Below, piece after piece: positions 20,417 through 24,911 of a stretch of DNA of 50,391 nt. The stretch lies in assembly GCA_945874665.1 (NCBI GenBank), contig CAMCHJ010000014.1, positions 1 through 50,391 of the forward strand, in the 5' to 3' direction. The position numbers and the translations under genes are program-made. The stretch comes from Chitinophaga pinensis. Its GTDB lineage: Bacteria > Bacteroidota > Bacteroidia > UBA7662. The notes beneath the pieces were generated by a model. It was not told where the DNA came from. It did no database searches and worked only from the letters and a program-made list of their open reading frames with translations. Within the stretch, counting starts at the first letter, position 1. Each line of letters opens with the position of its first letter.

Positions 20417-21674
20417 GGTACTGCATACTTTTGTTTCTCGGGGTATCAATGCCGTGCTGAACTTGCTTTTAGTATTGGTTACGGCGCGTTTTTTGGGTGC
20501 TGAGGTGCGCGGAGAGATCAGTTTGCTGGTGGCGAGCATGAACTTGTCGCTGCATGCGGTTGGTCTCGCTGGTGGTGCTGCTCTTTTGTACTTGGTTCCG
20601 CGTTTTGCGCCTGGCCATTTGTACCGTATTTCTTTAGGTTGGATGGTTTTGGTGAGTATGCTGACCTTGCCGGTGTTGTATTTAGCGGGACAAATGCAAG
20701 GACTCAGTTCCTTCAGCTGGTTGTTGCTTTTGTTGTTGTTTAATGCGGCCAATTTAAATCGCTATATGTTGTTGGCTTTCCGAAAAATTGAACTTGATAA
20801 CCGCATTGGAATTGGGTTTGGTTTCCTGCAATTACTGTTGCTCATTGCTTTTTTATGGTGGGGAAGTGACAAGCGTCTGGAGCTTTTTGTCAATGTACTC
20901 TTGGCAGCCAACGCTGCTTTGCTGCTGCTTACTTCTTTTTTAGTGGTAAAGCACTGGCCTCAGGAGACTGTTAATCAACAGCAGGGGGTGCTGAAGGCTA
21001 TTTTTGGACATGGATTTTGGGTGCAAATGGCAAACATTGCGCAACTATTTAGCTACCGCTTGTCGTATTATTTGCTGGAGGCGCAGTTAGGAGCGGAAGC
21101 TGTAGGTGTTTATGGTGTTGCCGTTTCTTTGGCGGAGTCCTTGTGGTTAGTAAGCCGCTCCATTTCGTTGGTTCAAGTAAGTGAAATTGCCAACAGCACC
21201 AACGATTTGGAGCAAAAGCAGCTCACAGCTACTTGGAGCAGGGTTACTGCTTGGCTAACAGCGTTTTGCTTGATACCGTTATTGGCTATTCCGGATGGGT
21301 GGTTCACGGCTGTTTTTGGTTCAGAGTTTGTTGGCATGCGTACTTTGCTCGTGTGGTTGGCACCTGGAATTTTGGCTTTGGCTGCCTCCAACATCCTTAC
21401 GCATTATTTTTCAGGAAAAGGTAAATTCCAATTAAACGCCGTGGTTTCGGCCTTTACCTTGGCACTCGTGGCGATTATATTGCCAGTCATGATTGCCCGT
21501 TGGGGAGTTGTGGGTGCGGCGGCTGGACAATCATTGGCCTATCTGGCTGCCTGGGTTTTTGCAATCTTACTGTTTTCACAAGGAAAAAAGGCAGTCATTG
21601 GCAGCATCTTGCCGCAGCCATCAGATTTTGTGTTGCTTCAAAAAATTTGGCGCATCTTTCGCGATAAGGCATAA
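20406..21674 (+). CDS. Polysaccharide flippase (Wzx/MOP superfamily)
   Basis: A 422-residue integral membrane protein with about 12 hydrophobic segments. The opening HTFVSRGINAVLNLLLVLVTARFLGAEVRGEI is the usual first part of Wzx/RfbX-type exporters (helix 1, then RFLG). It probably flips undecaprenyl-linked glycans made with the overlapping GT4 enzyme. Specificity cannot be read. Its stop lies in the A tract of the tRNA-His terminator hairpin, which also forms a hairpin in its own direction. Confidence 0.85.
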   Translation: MFRRVLHTFVSRGINAVLNLLLVLVTARFLGAEVRGEISLLVASMNLSLHAVGLAGGAALLYLVPRFAPGHLYRISLGWMVLVSMLTLPVLYLAGQMQGLSSFSWLLLLLLFNAANLNRYMLLAFRKIELDNRIGIGFGFLQLLLLIAFLWWGSDKRLELFVNVLLAANAALLLLTSFLVVKHWPQETVNQQQGVLKAIFGHGFWVQMANIAQLFSYRLSYYLLEAQLGAEAVGVYGVAVSLAESLWLVSRSISLVQVSEIANSTNDLEQKQLTATWSRVTAWLTAFCLIPLLAIPDGWFTAVFGSEFVGMRTLLVWLAPGILALAASNILTHYFSGKGKFQLNAVVSAFTLALVAIILPVMIARWGVVGAAAGQSLAYLAAWVFAILLFSQGKKAVIGSILPQPSDFVLLQKIWRIFRDKA

Positions 21675-21696
21675 AAAAACCGACTCGAAAGTCGGT
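21673..21696 (-). terminator. tRNA-His terminator
   Basis: On the minus strand ACCGACT, a TTCG tetraloop and AGTCGGT form a perfect 7-bp hairpin followed by a run of T. It lies 12 nt past the 3' end of tRNA-His and overlaps the stop codon of the convergent flippase gene. Confidence 0.75.
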
Positions 21697-21708
21697 CTTA
21701 AGTAGATG

Positions 21709-21783
21709 GGTGAAAGACCGGGTTCGAACCGGCGACCTCTAGTGCCACAAACTAGCGCTCTAACCAGCTGAGCTACAATCACC
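21709..21783 (-). tRNA. tRNA-His (GTG anticodon)
   Basis: A 75-nt cloverleaf read on the minus strand. It has an extra 5' G (G-1) opposite C73, the histidine identity element. The D arm is GCTC/GAGC. The anticodon stem is CTAGT/ACTAG with loop TTGTGGC, giving anticodon GTG. The T arm is GCCGG-TTCGAAC-CCGGT. CCA is not encoded. The acceptor stem GTGATTG / CTTTCAC pairs at five of seven positions; positions 5-68 and 6-67 are U-U. All other arms pair well, so it still looks functional. Confidence 0.88.
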
Positions 21784-21890
21784 ATTTTATTAAAAAAACA
21801 GATGCTTTTTTAACGAACTGCAAATATACACCCTTAGCGCGTTTTTTACAACAATCAGAAAAAAATGAGGCAAATTTATGCGCCTCCCCG

Positions 21891-22259
21891 TCAGGCAGCG
21901 AGCTTCTCTTCTTTCTTAAAGATGATGACTTCCTCCCCAACTTTTTGATAGCCATATTCGTAGCAGAAATAGCGAGGACTGCCTAGGCGATTGAGTTCAA
22001 TGTGGGTGTGGTATTTGATGGAGAAACCCGTGTCAATTAATTTTTGCAGTAGCAATCTTGTTTTTTGTTGGCGCTGTGGCAGGAGGGATTCTAGAATGCG
22101 TCTGTTTTTGCGCAATATGTTGTGGATGTTACGAATGAGCAGCACTTCATCACAATGTTGCTTGTTGTAGTGTGCGTTTCTGCAGAAGTCATCACAGAAT
22201 TTTTTGTCGCGGCGTCCTTTGATTACAGCACCGCAGTCGAAACAGAGTTTTTGTTCCAT
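21891..22259 (-). CDS. Small zinc-finger protein (DUF2116-like)
   Basis: A 122-residue protein from ATG 22259. The N-terminus has a four-cysteine zinc ribbon: CFDCG near residues 5-9 and KKFCDDFCRNAHYN near residues 18-31. The middle is a helical NIHNILRKNRRILESLL segment, followed by an RYFCYEYGYQKV-like strand. Bacteroidota carry many such proteins of unknown function, probably binding nucleic acid. The ATG is preferred over an upstream start because MEQKLCFDCG is the common opening. It is divergent from ssb, with a four-copy repeat array between them. Confidence 0.7.
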   Translation of the reverse strand: MEQKLCFDCGAVIKGRRDKKFCDDFCRNAHYNKQHCDEVLLIRNIHNILRKNRRILESLLPQRQQKTRLLLQKLIDTGFSIKYHTHIELNRLGSPRYFCYEYGYQKVGEEVIIFKKEEKLAA

Positions 22260-22297
22260 GGCTTTGGGTTTTAAGTGAAACAGCATCGATCCGTTAG

Positions 22298-22335
22298 CAA
22301 ACGTTTAACAAACGTATACAAACGTATTCAAACGT
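22298..22335. repeat. Four CAAACGT repeats at helical spacing
   Basis: CAAACGT occurs at 22298, 22309, 22319 and 22329, with periods 11, 10 and 10, so all copies face the same side of the helix. On the minus strand the two middle copies at 22319 and 22309 and their neighbours read TACGTTTG or AACGTTTG, i.e. like -7 boxes TAnnTTTG for the zinc-finger gene. The array lies between that gene and ssb. It could be a regulator-binding array, stacked promoters, or both. Confidence 0.6.
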
Positions 22336-22424
22336 TTAAATTACGATTAACCAATATTCCATTTGCAGCTTTGTTTTACGAAATCACTTCGTTTGTTTCT
22401 TTTATAAACCAAAAAATTAAAATT

Positions 22425-22775
22425 ATGAGCAACATGAGAAATCAGGTGCGCCTCATTGGCAACCTGGGAAAAGATCCAGAGATTCGCGATATCAGCGAAA
22501 CAAAAAAGGTGGCAAAATTTAGCTTGGCCACCAACGAAACCTACCTCAACGACAAAGGGGAGAAGGTTACCGAAACCCAATGGCATCAAATTGTGTGCTG
22601 GGGCAAATTGGCAGGACTTACCGAAAAGTATTTGGTGAAGGGTTCTGAAATTGCACTAGAAGGTAAGTTGACTACCCGCGTATTCAATGACAAGGATGGA
22701 AATCGCCGTTTTATAACGGAAGTAATTGGTACCGACTTGGTCTTTTTAGGCAAAAAAAATGCACAGGCAGCTTAA
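22425..22775 (+). CDS. ssb: Single-stranded DNA-binding protein
   Basis: A 116-residue SSB consisting almost only of the OB fold: MRNQVRLIGNLGKDPEIR at the start, KVAKFSLATNETYLN, TQWHQIVCWGKLA, and the closing TEVIGTDLVFL. It lacks the acidic C-terminal tail (DDxPF-type) of typical SSB; it ends GKKNAQAA. This suggests a short paralogue, as found beside a main SSB in many Bacteroidota, or a protein without partner docking. I start at ATG 22425; ATG 22434 is also possible. The 5' region has no Shine-Dalgarno sequence. Confidence 0.9.
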   Translation: MSNMRNQVRLIGNLGKDPEIRDISETKKVAKFSLATNETYLNDKGEKVTETQWHQIVCWGKLAGLTEKYLVKGSEIALEGKLTTRVFNDKDGNRRFITEVIGTDLVFLGKKNAQAA

Positions 22776-22779
22776 CAAA

Positions 22780-22812
22780 AAAAGACGGGTGCTTTTCGGG
22801 CACCCGTCTTTT
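22780..22812 (+). terminator. ssb terminator, probably bidirectional
   Basis: GACGGGTGC (22784-22792) pairs perfectly with GCACCCGTC (22800-22808), with A4 before and T4 after. It lies between ssb and the convergent secreted-protein gene and can end both transcripts. Confidence 0.85.
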
Positions 22813-22829
22813 CTGTTGAAAAAGTTTTG

Positions 22830-24860
22830 CTATTTAATAATGGCAAATTTGCCAGTCTGAACGTCATTCGTACTTAGGTCTTTTACCGAAAACAGATAAA
22901 GACCACTTGCCAAATTTTGTTTGTCTTCCGAAAGCACATCCCACGCATGCTCGCCACCTGCCAAGGTTGTTTGGTTTGCGCTACCGCCGAAGTTATTGTA
23001 CCAGCCAATGGTGCTGCCATTAAAATCACTGCCGGCATCATGAAGCAATGTAGCTACAACGTCACCACTGATGGTGTAGATGCGTATTTCGGCGCGGGCT
23101 GGTAGGTTGTAAAAAATCATTTTTTTAGAACGACTTGTGGTGCCATCCCAGGCTGCGCTCAGGCGATACGGGTTAGGGTAAACGCCTGGCTTGCGGTCTT
23201 TGCTCATCTCGCCAGCTTCCGTGCCCGAAAACAAACGGAAGGCGTTTTGAACACGTGACGACTCTAAGGGCTCCAGGCCAATGGCAGGGTCACCTTCATC
23301 AAAAGCTGTTAGGATGTACAGGTACTGCCAGCCATTGAGCACATCACCAACTTCGTATTTATACCAATATTCCGTGGTGTCTTCAGCGAAAGTAATTGGA
23401 CTGTTAAGCCTTACAGCATCAAAGCTATTATTAAAACCAACGGCATTGCCTGGCTTATCCCATTGCGCGAGTAAACTGGCACGCGACAATAAATTCGGAC
23501 TCAAATCATCGCCTGGCTTGGTACGGTAGATGCGATAACCCTCAAAATCTTGGATTTTGGTGATGGGGTCGATGGCATCTTCTGAGAGTCTGTTCCAGTA
23601 AATGACTACTTTATTGTTTTTCGCTTCAAATCGTGCTTTAGGCGGTGGTGGCGGTTCTGGTAAAATGTAGCGATCCAAAGTGCCGTTGTTGTTCAAATCT
23701 TCACCTGGGTTGAGTATGCCATTTTCATTGGCATCTTCACCAACAAAAGTGCGTTTAGCCCACCCAAGGTTAGCACGCAGCTGGGTACGCGCAAAATAAG
23801 TGTCTAATGGGGTGTCGTCGAGTTGTGGGGCACAAACCGTGGCCATTACAAAGGTTACAGACTGACCAGGCTCGACTCTGGGTACAGGTCCTGCAGAAAT
23901 GAGTTGCACACGGTTGCCAGGCGTGGCTAAACCAGCATTAGGACCAAAATTGGCTTTGGTTTTCATCCGGTCGTAGCGCTGCAAATCGTTTGTTGGAGCG
24001 GCCACGTTATAAAGCCAATAGTTTCCATTTACTTGCGCATAGGGCGTATTGGGATTATTGGGGTGGATATATTGTCCGTTTTGGAGGATGCCCAAAAACT
24101 GCAAAGCACCATAAGAATTGGTGAACGGACGGTCTCCAATCACGTCATAGGCATACATGGCCGATAGGGTATCATCAAAGCCAAGGCTCCCTTTGTTGAA
24201 AAAAGCGCCACCGCGGTCGTTCGTAACATTTACATTTCGCACCACCAAATCGCTCCACATGCCCAAGTAAACCGAATCCCAAGGCACGTTGTCGTTGTTG
24301 GTGATGGTGTAGTTTAGGATGGTAAAATAATCTGCAAAAGGAAAATTCCAGGCATAGGTTTCAAGGCGCACCCGTGCATTTAAAGGCGTGAGGTGGTTAT
24401 TGATGGGCTGATTTGAGCCGGGGACAATGGTGAACTCATCTGTAAAGTTGAGCACATATTCTTGGTGTGAGATGGCGGCAGTCGAAAAAACCTCGCTTCC
24501 AGGCAAGCTCGAGCGGGTGATGACGGGGGTGCCGGGCAACGGACTGAATTCGTATCCTGATTTTCCAACGGCATAACCCGAGGCATCATCTACAGCACCC
24601 GTGGTTACCGCAATTTGGCCATTTTTAATGGCGCCAATCCACAAGCCAGCTTCAAATAAGTGTTCAACACCTGAATTTAAAGGATATTCCATCGATGGTG
24701 GTCCTTGCGGGTCGTTTCGAACGTTCGGCCGTCCAACTGCACCTGCATTGGTTACGTTAACACCAATGTTGCCAATACTAATGGTTTTTTCTTCAAATTG
24801 CCCTTGAGCAATTCCAAAAAAGAAGAGCATGAGCAAAAGACTAAATGAGAATTTGGTCAT
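22830..24860 (-). CDS. Large secreted protein with calcium-binding-like loop and C-terminal sorting-type domain
   Basis: A 676-residue exported protein with signal peptide MTKFSFSLLLMLFFFGIAQG. The first 370 residues are beta-rich and unrecognised. Near residue 385 a DANENGILNPGED loop plus NNNGTLD resembles dockerin or EF-hand calcium loops. A fibronectin-like segment (FEGYRIYRT) follows. The last 110 residues contain GVYPNPYRLSAAWDG and IRIYTISGDVVATLLH and end GLYLFSVKDL...TGKFAIIK, resembling a FlgD-Ig/T9SS sorting domain. It probably ends up outside the cell or on the surface. Function unknown. A TATTTTCG lies just upstream. Confidence 0.75.
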   Translation of the reverse strand: MTKFSFSLLLMLFFFGIAQGQFEEKTISIGNIGVNVTNAGAVGRPNVRNDPQGPPSMEYPLNSGVEHLFEAGLWIGAIKNGQIAVTTGAVDDASGYAVGKSGYEFSPLPGTPVITRSSLPGSEVFSTAAISHQEYVLNFTDEFTIVPGSNQPINNHLTPLNARVRLETYAWNFPFADYFTILNYTITNNDNVPWDSVYLGMWSDLVVRNVNVTNDRGGAFFNKGSLGFDDTLSAMYAYDVIGDRPFTNSYGALQFLGILQNGQYIHPNNPNTPYAQVNGNYWLYNVAAPTNDLQRYDRMKTKANFGPNAGLATPGNRVQLISAGPVPRVEPGQSVTFVMATVCAPQLDDTPLDTYFARTQLRANLGWAKRTFVGEDANENGILNPGEDLNNNGTLDRYILPEPPPPPKARFEAKNNKVVIYWNRLSEDAIDPITKIQDFEGYRIYRTKPGDDLSPNLLSRASLLAQWDKPGNAVGFNNSFDAVRLNSPITFAEDTTEYWYKYEVGDVLNGWQYLYILTAFDEGDPAIGLEPLESSRVQNAFRLFSGTEAGEMSKDRKPGVYPNPYRLSAAWDGTTSRSKKMIFYNLPARAEIRIYTISGDVVATLLHDAGSDFNGSTIGWYNNFGGSANQTTLAGGEHAWDVLSEDKQNLASGLYLFSVKDLSTNDVQTGKFAIIK

Positions 24861-24866
24861 AAGCCA

Positions 24867-24874
24867 CGAAAATA
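24867..24874 (-). promoter_or_regulatory. Candidate -7 box of the large secreted-protein gene
   Basis: TATTTTCG on the minus strand has one mismatch to TAnnTTTG and lies 6 nt from the ATG at 24860. Confidence 0.35.
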
Positions 24875-24911
24875 AGAAGAAGCTGTTAAATGACTATCAA
24901 GAAGCCAGATT

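Follow-up and report, generated by a model that had tools for sequence, protein, structure and literature searches.

In Streptococcus pneumoniae and Bacillus subtilis, the competence protein SsbB is a second, shorter SSB expressed in competence; it is controlled separately from the longer SSB that it accompanies (131 versus 156 residues in the pneumococcus), according to PMC3128108. Natural transformation is also reported for some Bacteroidota, such as Riemerella, in which ComM (YifB) mutants are described as transforming poorly (PMC8459023). Among described regulators, MraZ recognizes boxes in the dcw promoter that are arranged ahead of the promoter as several direct repeats spaced by one helical turn (PMC5282649). 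In Bacteroidetes, S24-family LexA regulators are reported to control SOS regulons, that is, DNA-repair regulons that can include ssb (PMC8565304), and the -7 consensus of the Bacteroidota housekeeping sigma factor (sigma-A) is given as TAnnTTTG (PMC9723704).

Here, we describe a tandem array, hereafter the comb, which lies between a zinc-finger gene and a divergent short ssb gene in a Chitinophaga pinensis contig (Table 1); the whole 50,391-nucleotide stretch analyzed is referred to as the window. Like MraZ boxes, the comb is a promoter array of direct repeats at ~10-bp spacing, but it has another core, more units, a zinc-finger candidate protein, a fixed distance to the Bacteroidota -7 box and DNA-processing targets. 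It also differs from the LexA sites reported in PMC8565304, which are palindromes (CTAA-N5-TTAG or GGA-N5-TCC) and not a tandem comb, and the regulators of which are proteins of the S24-peptidase family. The linked SSB resembles SsbB in being a second, shorter SSB, but its control element and candidate regulator are different. Neither the comb array nor the zinc-finger protein was found described in the open-licence literature searched, the listed text matches to comb strings being unrelated by title, and the same literature yielded no transcriptional regulator of natural transformation in Bacteroidota.

A six-unit phased array upstream of a short ssb gene

The original prediction reported four copies of CAAACGT in helical phase upstream of ssb. 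All four are exact plus-strand matches, with starts 11, 10 and 10 bp apart. In total, the window contains eight CAAACGT copies against a chance mean of 9.0, and none of 300 dinucleotide shuffles had more than two copies in 38 bp. Furthermore, CAAACGT is the sole 7-mer of the window with four non-overlapping copies in 38 bp, a density that no 7-mer attained in 60 shuffles. The four phased copies are real and not a product of chance. They form the middle of a longer, six-unit element (22291-22346) with two further, degenerate outer units, CCG (22291-22293) and TTACG (22341-22345), and with CGs at 22292, 22302, 22313, 22323, 22333 and 22344. A tRNA gene on the minus strand (21709-21782, Rfam) adjoins the zinc-finger gene.

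Table 1. Features of the interval between the zinc-finger gene and ssb, and of the flanking genes (window coordinates)
Feature	Position	Strand	Evidence or remark
Zinc-finger gene, 122 aa, candidate regulator	21891-22259	-	C6, C9, C22 and C26 invariant; AlphaFold model
Comb array, six CG-centred units, steps 10, 11, 10, 10, 11 bp, unit consensus approximately TTACAAACGN	22290-22351	+	62-column profile; model R1
First unit CCG, degenerate	22291-22293	+	CG at 22292; many relatives start ATCCG
CAAACGT copy 1	22298-22304	+	Exact match
CAAACGT copy 2	22309-22315	+	Exact match
CAAACGT copy 3	22319-22325	+	Exact match
CAAACGT copy 4	22329-22335	+	Exact match
Terminal unit TTACGA (mostly ACCGA in relatives), at the -33 position of the ssb promoter	22341-22346	+	Profile, promoter comparison
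ssb -7 box CAGCTTTG (cf. TAnnTTTG), TTTG 26 nt after the last CG	22366-22373	+	Fixed place in relatives
ssb, short SSB paralogue, 116 aa, no acidic C-terminal tip, ends LVFLGKKNAQAA	22425-22775	+	PF00436, E 2.3e-29

The same genome (G000) encodes a separate SSB of 147 aa that ends in DDDLPF (C5:68263), the product of the comb-linked gene being the second, shorter SSB beside a tailed one, as in SsbB pairs. Across the array-linked SSBs (91 distinct proteins, ORFs at locus ends and identical proteins left out), the median length is 114 aa; the LPF ending is present in 9 and absent in 82, whereas pneumococcal SsbB has an acidic tail (PMC3128108). Three genomes, G141 (L265/L266), G232 (L271/L272) and G107 (L263/L264), have two short ssb paralogues, and a comb was seen before each copy.

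Conservation of the comb and promoter geometry

Repeats that were absent or out of phase in close relatives would speak against the prediction. Two genomes of the same genus (G001 and G002) keep the phased array, and alignment of the interval revealed class-wide conservation of both its phasing and its location. From a scan of named genomes with a zinc-finger profile, we took the best 80 out of at least 573 relatives; almost all carry Bacteroidota names, and cultured ones include Mucilaginibacter and Cyclobacterium. In 33 of the 80, a divergent SSB gene lies within 700 bp of the zinc-finger gene, and 31 of these 33 unselected intergenic regions have a comb profile score above 12. The 62-column profile, for which 12 of the first 30 relatives were selected by eye because an ssb or comb was visible and the eight loci of genus g2 were left out, scored above 12 in 43 of 45 ssb/zinc-finger intergenic regions, with L062 and L108 below. 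The comb of relatives typically starts with approximately ATCCG, continues with TTTACAAACG units and ends with ACCGA, the CG steps being 10, 10, 10, 10 and 11 bp. Identity of the zinc-finger proteins to that of the window, the first row of the alignment, is 39-55% across the 80 rows, which indicates long-term conservation of the comb. It is near certain that the comb in the short ssb promoter represents a conserved cis element. An exact three-unit pattern had matches in only 5 of 60 relatives; in G004, the reversed control matched as often as the pattern itself. The pattern matches in G004 and G047 (L031, L032) looked unrelated.

The plus strand carries a -7 box that the original prediction overlooked, with TTTG beginning at 22370. 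When distances were measured after alignment on the 62 comb columns alone, the spacing from the last CG to TTTG was exactly 27 nt in all 27 named loci with a profile score of at least 40 (6 of the 33 named loci, scoring below 40, were left out). With seven relatives from the by-eye set added, this distance holds in 33 of 34 promoters; the exception, L003, is from the genus of the window, where the distance is 26 nt (window, L002 and L003). Genus g2, represented by eight loci, has the array down to two units and still keeps the CG-27-TTTG arrangement. TTTG is also found at +27 in 51 of 58 further loci (66 minus 6 scoring below 20 and 2 duplicates), a count that is not independent, since these loci were found with a model containing the -7 box. 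The fixed place of TTTG in 33 of 34 promoters fits a sigma-A -7 element, the first two bases of which are CA in 27 of 33 and TA in 1 of 33. With the octamer spanning -12 to -5, as given in PMC9723704, transcription of ssb in the window would be predicted to begin near 22378.

The original prediction had also pointed out that two of the copies read TACGTTTG on the other strand and match the -7 consensus, as those at 22309 and 22319 (CAAACGTA) do, both fitting TAnnTTTG, and had offered two readings: an array for a regulator bound to one face of the DNA, possibly the zinc-finger protein itself, or stacked promoters. According to the latter, the TACGTTTG copies would be -7 boxes of minus-strand promoters for the zinc-finger gene. 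However, TAnnTTTG occurs on the minus strand inside only 3 of 39 arrays (the window, L002 and L120), the array persists without an adjacent zinc-finger gene, and the -7 box at a fixed place is on the plus strand, which makes stacked promoters very improbable. The first reading, with the zinc-finger protein as the candidate binder, is well supported, given that phasing and position are kept in the class, that the array co-occurs with the zinc-finger gene and that the two remain linked on plasmids without ssb.

Sigma-A promoters of Bacteroidota also contain a -33 TTTG element with a normal spacer. A canonical -33 TTTG was found in 0 of 33 promoters at spacers of 17-23 nt before the -7 octamer. 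At 21 nt before the octamer, there is the end of an NNCG, which is ACCG in 19 of 33 promoters; the last comb unit occupies the place expected for the -33 box. We infer from this anatomy a promoter requiring an activator. Because the -33 TTTG is missing and the last unit is at the -33 position, the array looks like a platform for an ssb activator, and an activator site is its likely function.

Given that ssb has been placed in the SOS regulon of several Bacteroidetes species (PMC8565304), the interval could hold a LexA-type operator or, alternatively, an RNA element. CTAA-N5-TTAG is found in 0 of 45 intergenic regions and GGA-N5-TCC in 11 of 45, neither being present in that of the window, and the LexA motifs reported in PMC8565304 are single palindromes. 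Rfam at the gathering threshold finds only the tRNA (21709-21782) in 20500-24900. With CTAA-N5-TTAG absent and Rfam showing only a tRNA, both candidates were rejected, and we regard this explanation as highly improbable.

The zinc-finger protein and its association with the comb

The four cysteines of the zinc-finger protein and its motif GRxDKKFC are invariant or nearly so. Searches of Pfam and NCBIfam gave no match above cut-off. One plasmid homologue is annotated as DUF2116 (PF09889, a probable treble clef), and there are weak matches to this family over the finger part; however, all are below the Pfam gathering cut-off (the best is 19.9 bits versus 26.8) and cover the first ~28-38 residues of the 122-aa protein. 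The AlphaFold model, which is confident (pLDDT 91, pTM 0.66), predicts a finger, helices 24-34 and 36-59, and then a small mixed part. Structure searches, in which the domains were used together as one model, retrieved no solved fold at E 0.001 or better with Foldseek, and the best PDB sequence match had E 0.37. Via one-by-one alignment, residues 43-118 matched RctB (5tbf_A; Z 4.8), Stn1 (Z 3.9) and CtsR (Z 3.2), all with Z below 5. We take these three entries to hold winged-helix domains, which residues 43-118 of the model weakly resemble. Of the 35 zinc-finger positives among 148 genomes sampled from the phylum, 34 belong to the class of the window. The gene is also carried by a contig labelled Candidatus Saccharibacteria (L071), which is probably a mis-binned Bacteroidota contig.

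The joint distribution of array and gene was determined with R1, a sequence-only model of comb plus promoter based on 35 sequences, and with the zinc-finger profile, both applied to one set of 296 genomes from the class, each with a completeness of at least 95%. R1 matches the window at 22289-22375 (E 7.5e-15), the window copy (L001) being among its own 35 sequences. The zinc finger was found in 210 genomes and R1 matches at E 1e-4 or better in 167: 165 genomes have both, 45 the zinc finger only, 2 the array only and 84 neither (Fisher test, p ~1e-37, phylogeny uncorrected). Thus, no array reaches the threshold of E 1e-4 in 45 of the 210 genomes with the zinc finger. Because R1 was trained on zinc-finger-linked arrays, a diverged array in a genome without the gene could be missed. 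Both array-only genomes are fragmented into hundreds of contigs: in G085 (460 contigs), the match is not before ssb, and in G107 (410 contigs), two strong arrays both precede ssb and no zinc finger was found. Within genus g80, G120, G188 and G257 have the zinc finger and a strong array with ssb behind it; G208 and G242 are without the zinc finger and without a comb before an SSB gene, although both have kept a tailed SSB along with a short, more distant one that has no comb. Likewise, the short SSBs viewed in zinc-finger-less genomes (L348, L349, L353, L357) have no comb, and 0 of 9 weak array matches viewed in such genomes (L304-L307, L309-L313) are before an ssb gene. In multi-match genomes, part of the R1 matches was viewed, among the matches listed. 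Since the array is present almost only in zinc-finger genomes, the zinc-finger protein is likely the operator of the switch.

In G027, G040 (one gene between), G046 and G056, where the zinc-finger gene is not a neighbour, the array stays with ssb and is, therefore, mainly an ssb element. Where the two genes are apart, R1 finds a comb directly before the zinc-finger gene in only 3 of 57 loci (L012, L077 and L095; 47 named loci and 10 relatives), and general autoregulation of the gene was rejected on this count. The same figure bears on whether the zinc-finger protein could act as a repressor, with proteins lined up across the -33 region that block RNA polymerase until released by ssDNA or another signal. 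The array does overlap the -33 position, and divergent regulator-target pairs often are repressor circuits. LexA-type control of ssb has, in addition, been predicted in several Bacteroidetes (PMC8565304). However, no canonical -33 was seen in 33 of 33 promoters, which suggests that the promoter is weak unaided, simple blocking would not require such strict helical spacing from the -7 box, and general autoregulation does not apply. Repression appears unlikely to us.

All four plasmids with a zinc-finger homologue (from Rufibacter, Pontibacter, Adhaeribacter and Persicobacter) have a comb directly before the homologue, and in three of the four it is located between the zinc-finger gene and a divergent tyrosine recombinase (integrase) gene, not ssb. 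The Pontibacter and Rufibacter plasmid combs differ in their core but not in their step, and each has a -7-like box located at 26 nt (TACCTTTG and TATCTTGG, respectively). No array was found at the plasmid ssb genes of Flagellimonas, Arenibacter and Aquimarina, and no zinc-finger homologue in phages at E 1e-3. Given the linkage in two contexts, ssb loci and plasmids, and the co-occurrence across genomes, we consider the zinc-finger protein the likely binder of the comb.

Where the two genes are apart, the array tracks ssb and not the zinc-finger gene, as would be expected if another regulator bound the comb and the zinc-finger protein were merely a co-inherited neighbour. MraZ and LexA were the alternatives compared; MraZ sites in Mollicutes are reported as (AAAGTGKN3)3 direct repeats (PMC5282649). 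Yet, among 18 zinc-finger-less genomes, 16 contain mraZ but no array at E 1e-4 or better, while G120, with a strong array (E 5.2e-16), yielded no mraZ. MraZ was rejected on this distribution, as the array does not follow mraZ. Moreover, plasmid combs stay with the zinc-finger gene without ssb, and binding by another regulator seems quite unlikely.

Other comb-bearing promoters and a possible regulon

A search of the same genome for further arrays, suggested by the original prediction, recovered combs before a UvrD-type helicase gene (about eleven units, with TTTG 26 nt after the last) and before Rpn-family nuclease genes. The helicase and Rpn classes are again preceded by combs in the same genus and family. 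Among ten such promoters in the family of the window, four carry TTTG exactly, at a distance of 26 or 27 nt, three have CTTG or ATTG there and three have none; in G002, of the same genus, a DUF2281 gene has a comb with TTTG at 27 nt. In G017 (genus g5), comM, a DUF2851 gene and an integrase gene each have a comb with TTTG at 27 nt. Outside g5, the array was found at 0 of 30 comM loci, and comM was rejected as a general target, which leaves the short SSB as the main basis for a competence link. Elsewhere, combs precede genes for integrases (L177, L273, L282), a PolB-type exonuclease (L268), a Y1 transposase (L269), an ORF6N protein (L270) and 23S-IVP-like proteins (L276, L280).

Of the 30 strongest matches in the class, two (L124 and L126) were already known ssb loci, and the 28 newly fetched have ssb behind the comb in 28 of 28 cases. 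These 28 and 38 hand-picked loci with extra matches make up the set of 66, the gene mix of which is biased to non-ssb genes; ssb was identified in 50 of 66 by script and in three more (L236, L245, L246) on protein inspection. Since the strongest class matches all precede ssb, the short ssb gene is the core of the putative regulon, the remainder being lineage-specific.

Collectively, we consider it rather probable that a zinc-finger activator on the comb controls the short ssb gene and a recombination or competence-like regulon. The interval would be the promoter of the short SSB gene, on which copies of the zinc-finger protein would bind side by side on one DNA face, one per 10-11 bp unit. The last unit would replace the missing -33 element, and the protein row would hold RNA polymerase on the -7 box and thereby switch ssb on. 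Given the combs before other DNA-processing genes, the same protein would run a wider regulon in some lineages, which plausibly belongs to a competence or recombination programme. The trigger, we infer, could be DNA uptake or single-stranded DNA.

More tentatively, with somewhat less than even confidence, these proteins might constitute a class-wide, undescribed group of zinc-finger activators that polymerize head to tail on a 10-bp comb, the last tooth replacing the -33 element, and run a competence/recombination regulon, a switch that integrases on plasmids and MITE-like repeats would have captured to fire upon DNA uptake. If so, the regulon would comprise the tail-less SSB and, depending on the lineage, a UvrD-type helicase, Rpn nucleases, ComM, integrases and a Y1 transposase. 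Should the comb be the zinc-finger operator, the genes co-switched with the spare SSB would be predictable from sequence alone, as would the mobile elements that respond to the switch, and the comb would be a clear case of an activator row substituting for a core promoter element.

Three genomes of family f2 (G017, G019 and G020) have at least 58, at least 36 and at least 31 R1 matches, respectively, on both strands at E up to 0.1. Those viewed (e.g., L163 2267, L174 2278 and L182 2463) are mostly located within palindromic, MITE-like intergenic repeats with shared flanks. The combs at L166 (2560-2660) and L186 (195-300) have TTTG at +27 and are directed into a convergent carboxypeptidase-like gene, behind which lies recA; they may represent a long upstream recA promoter or produce an antisense transcript. 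In G125 (L277-L279), the combs have a GGAGGGTGGC-like stretch in common downstream of the -7 box and may belong to a further dispersed element with a comb, in a separate family (f5).
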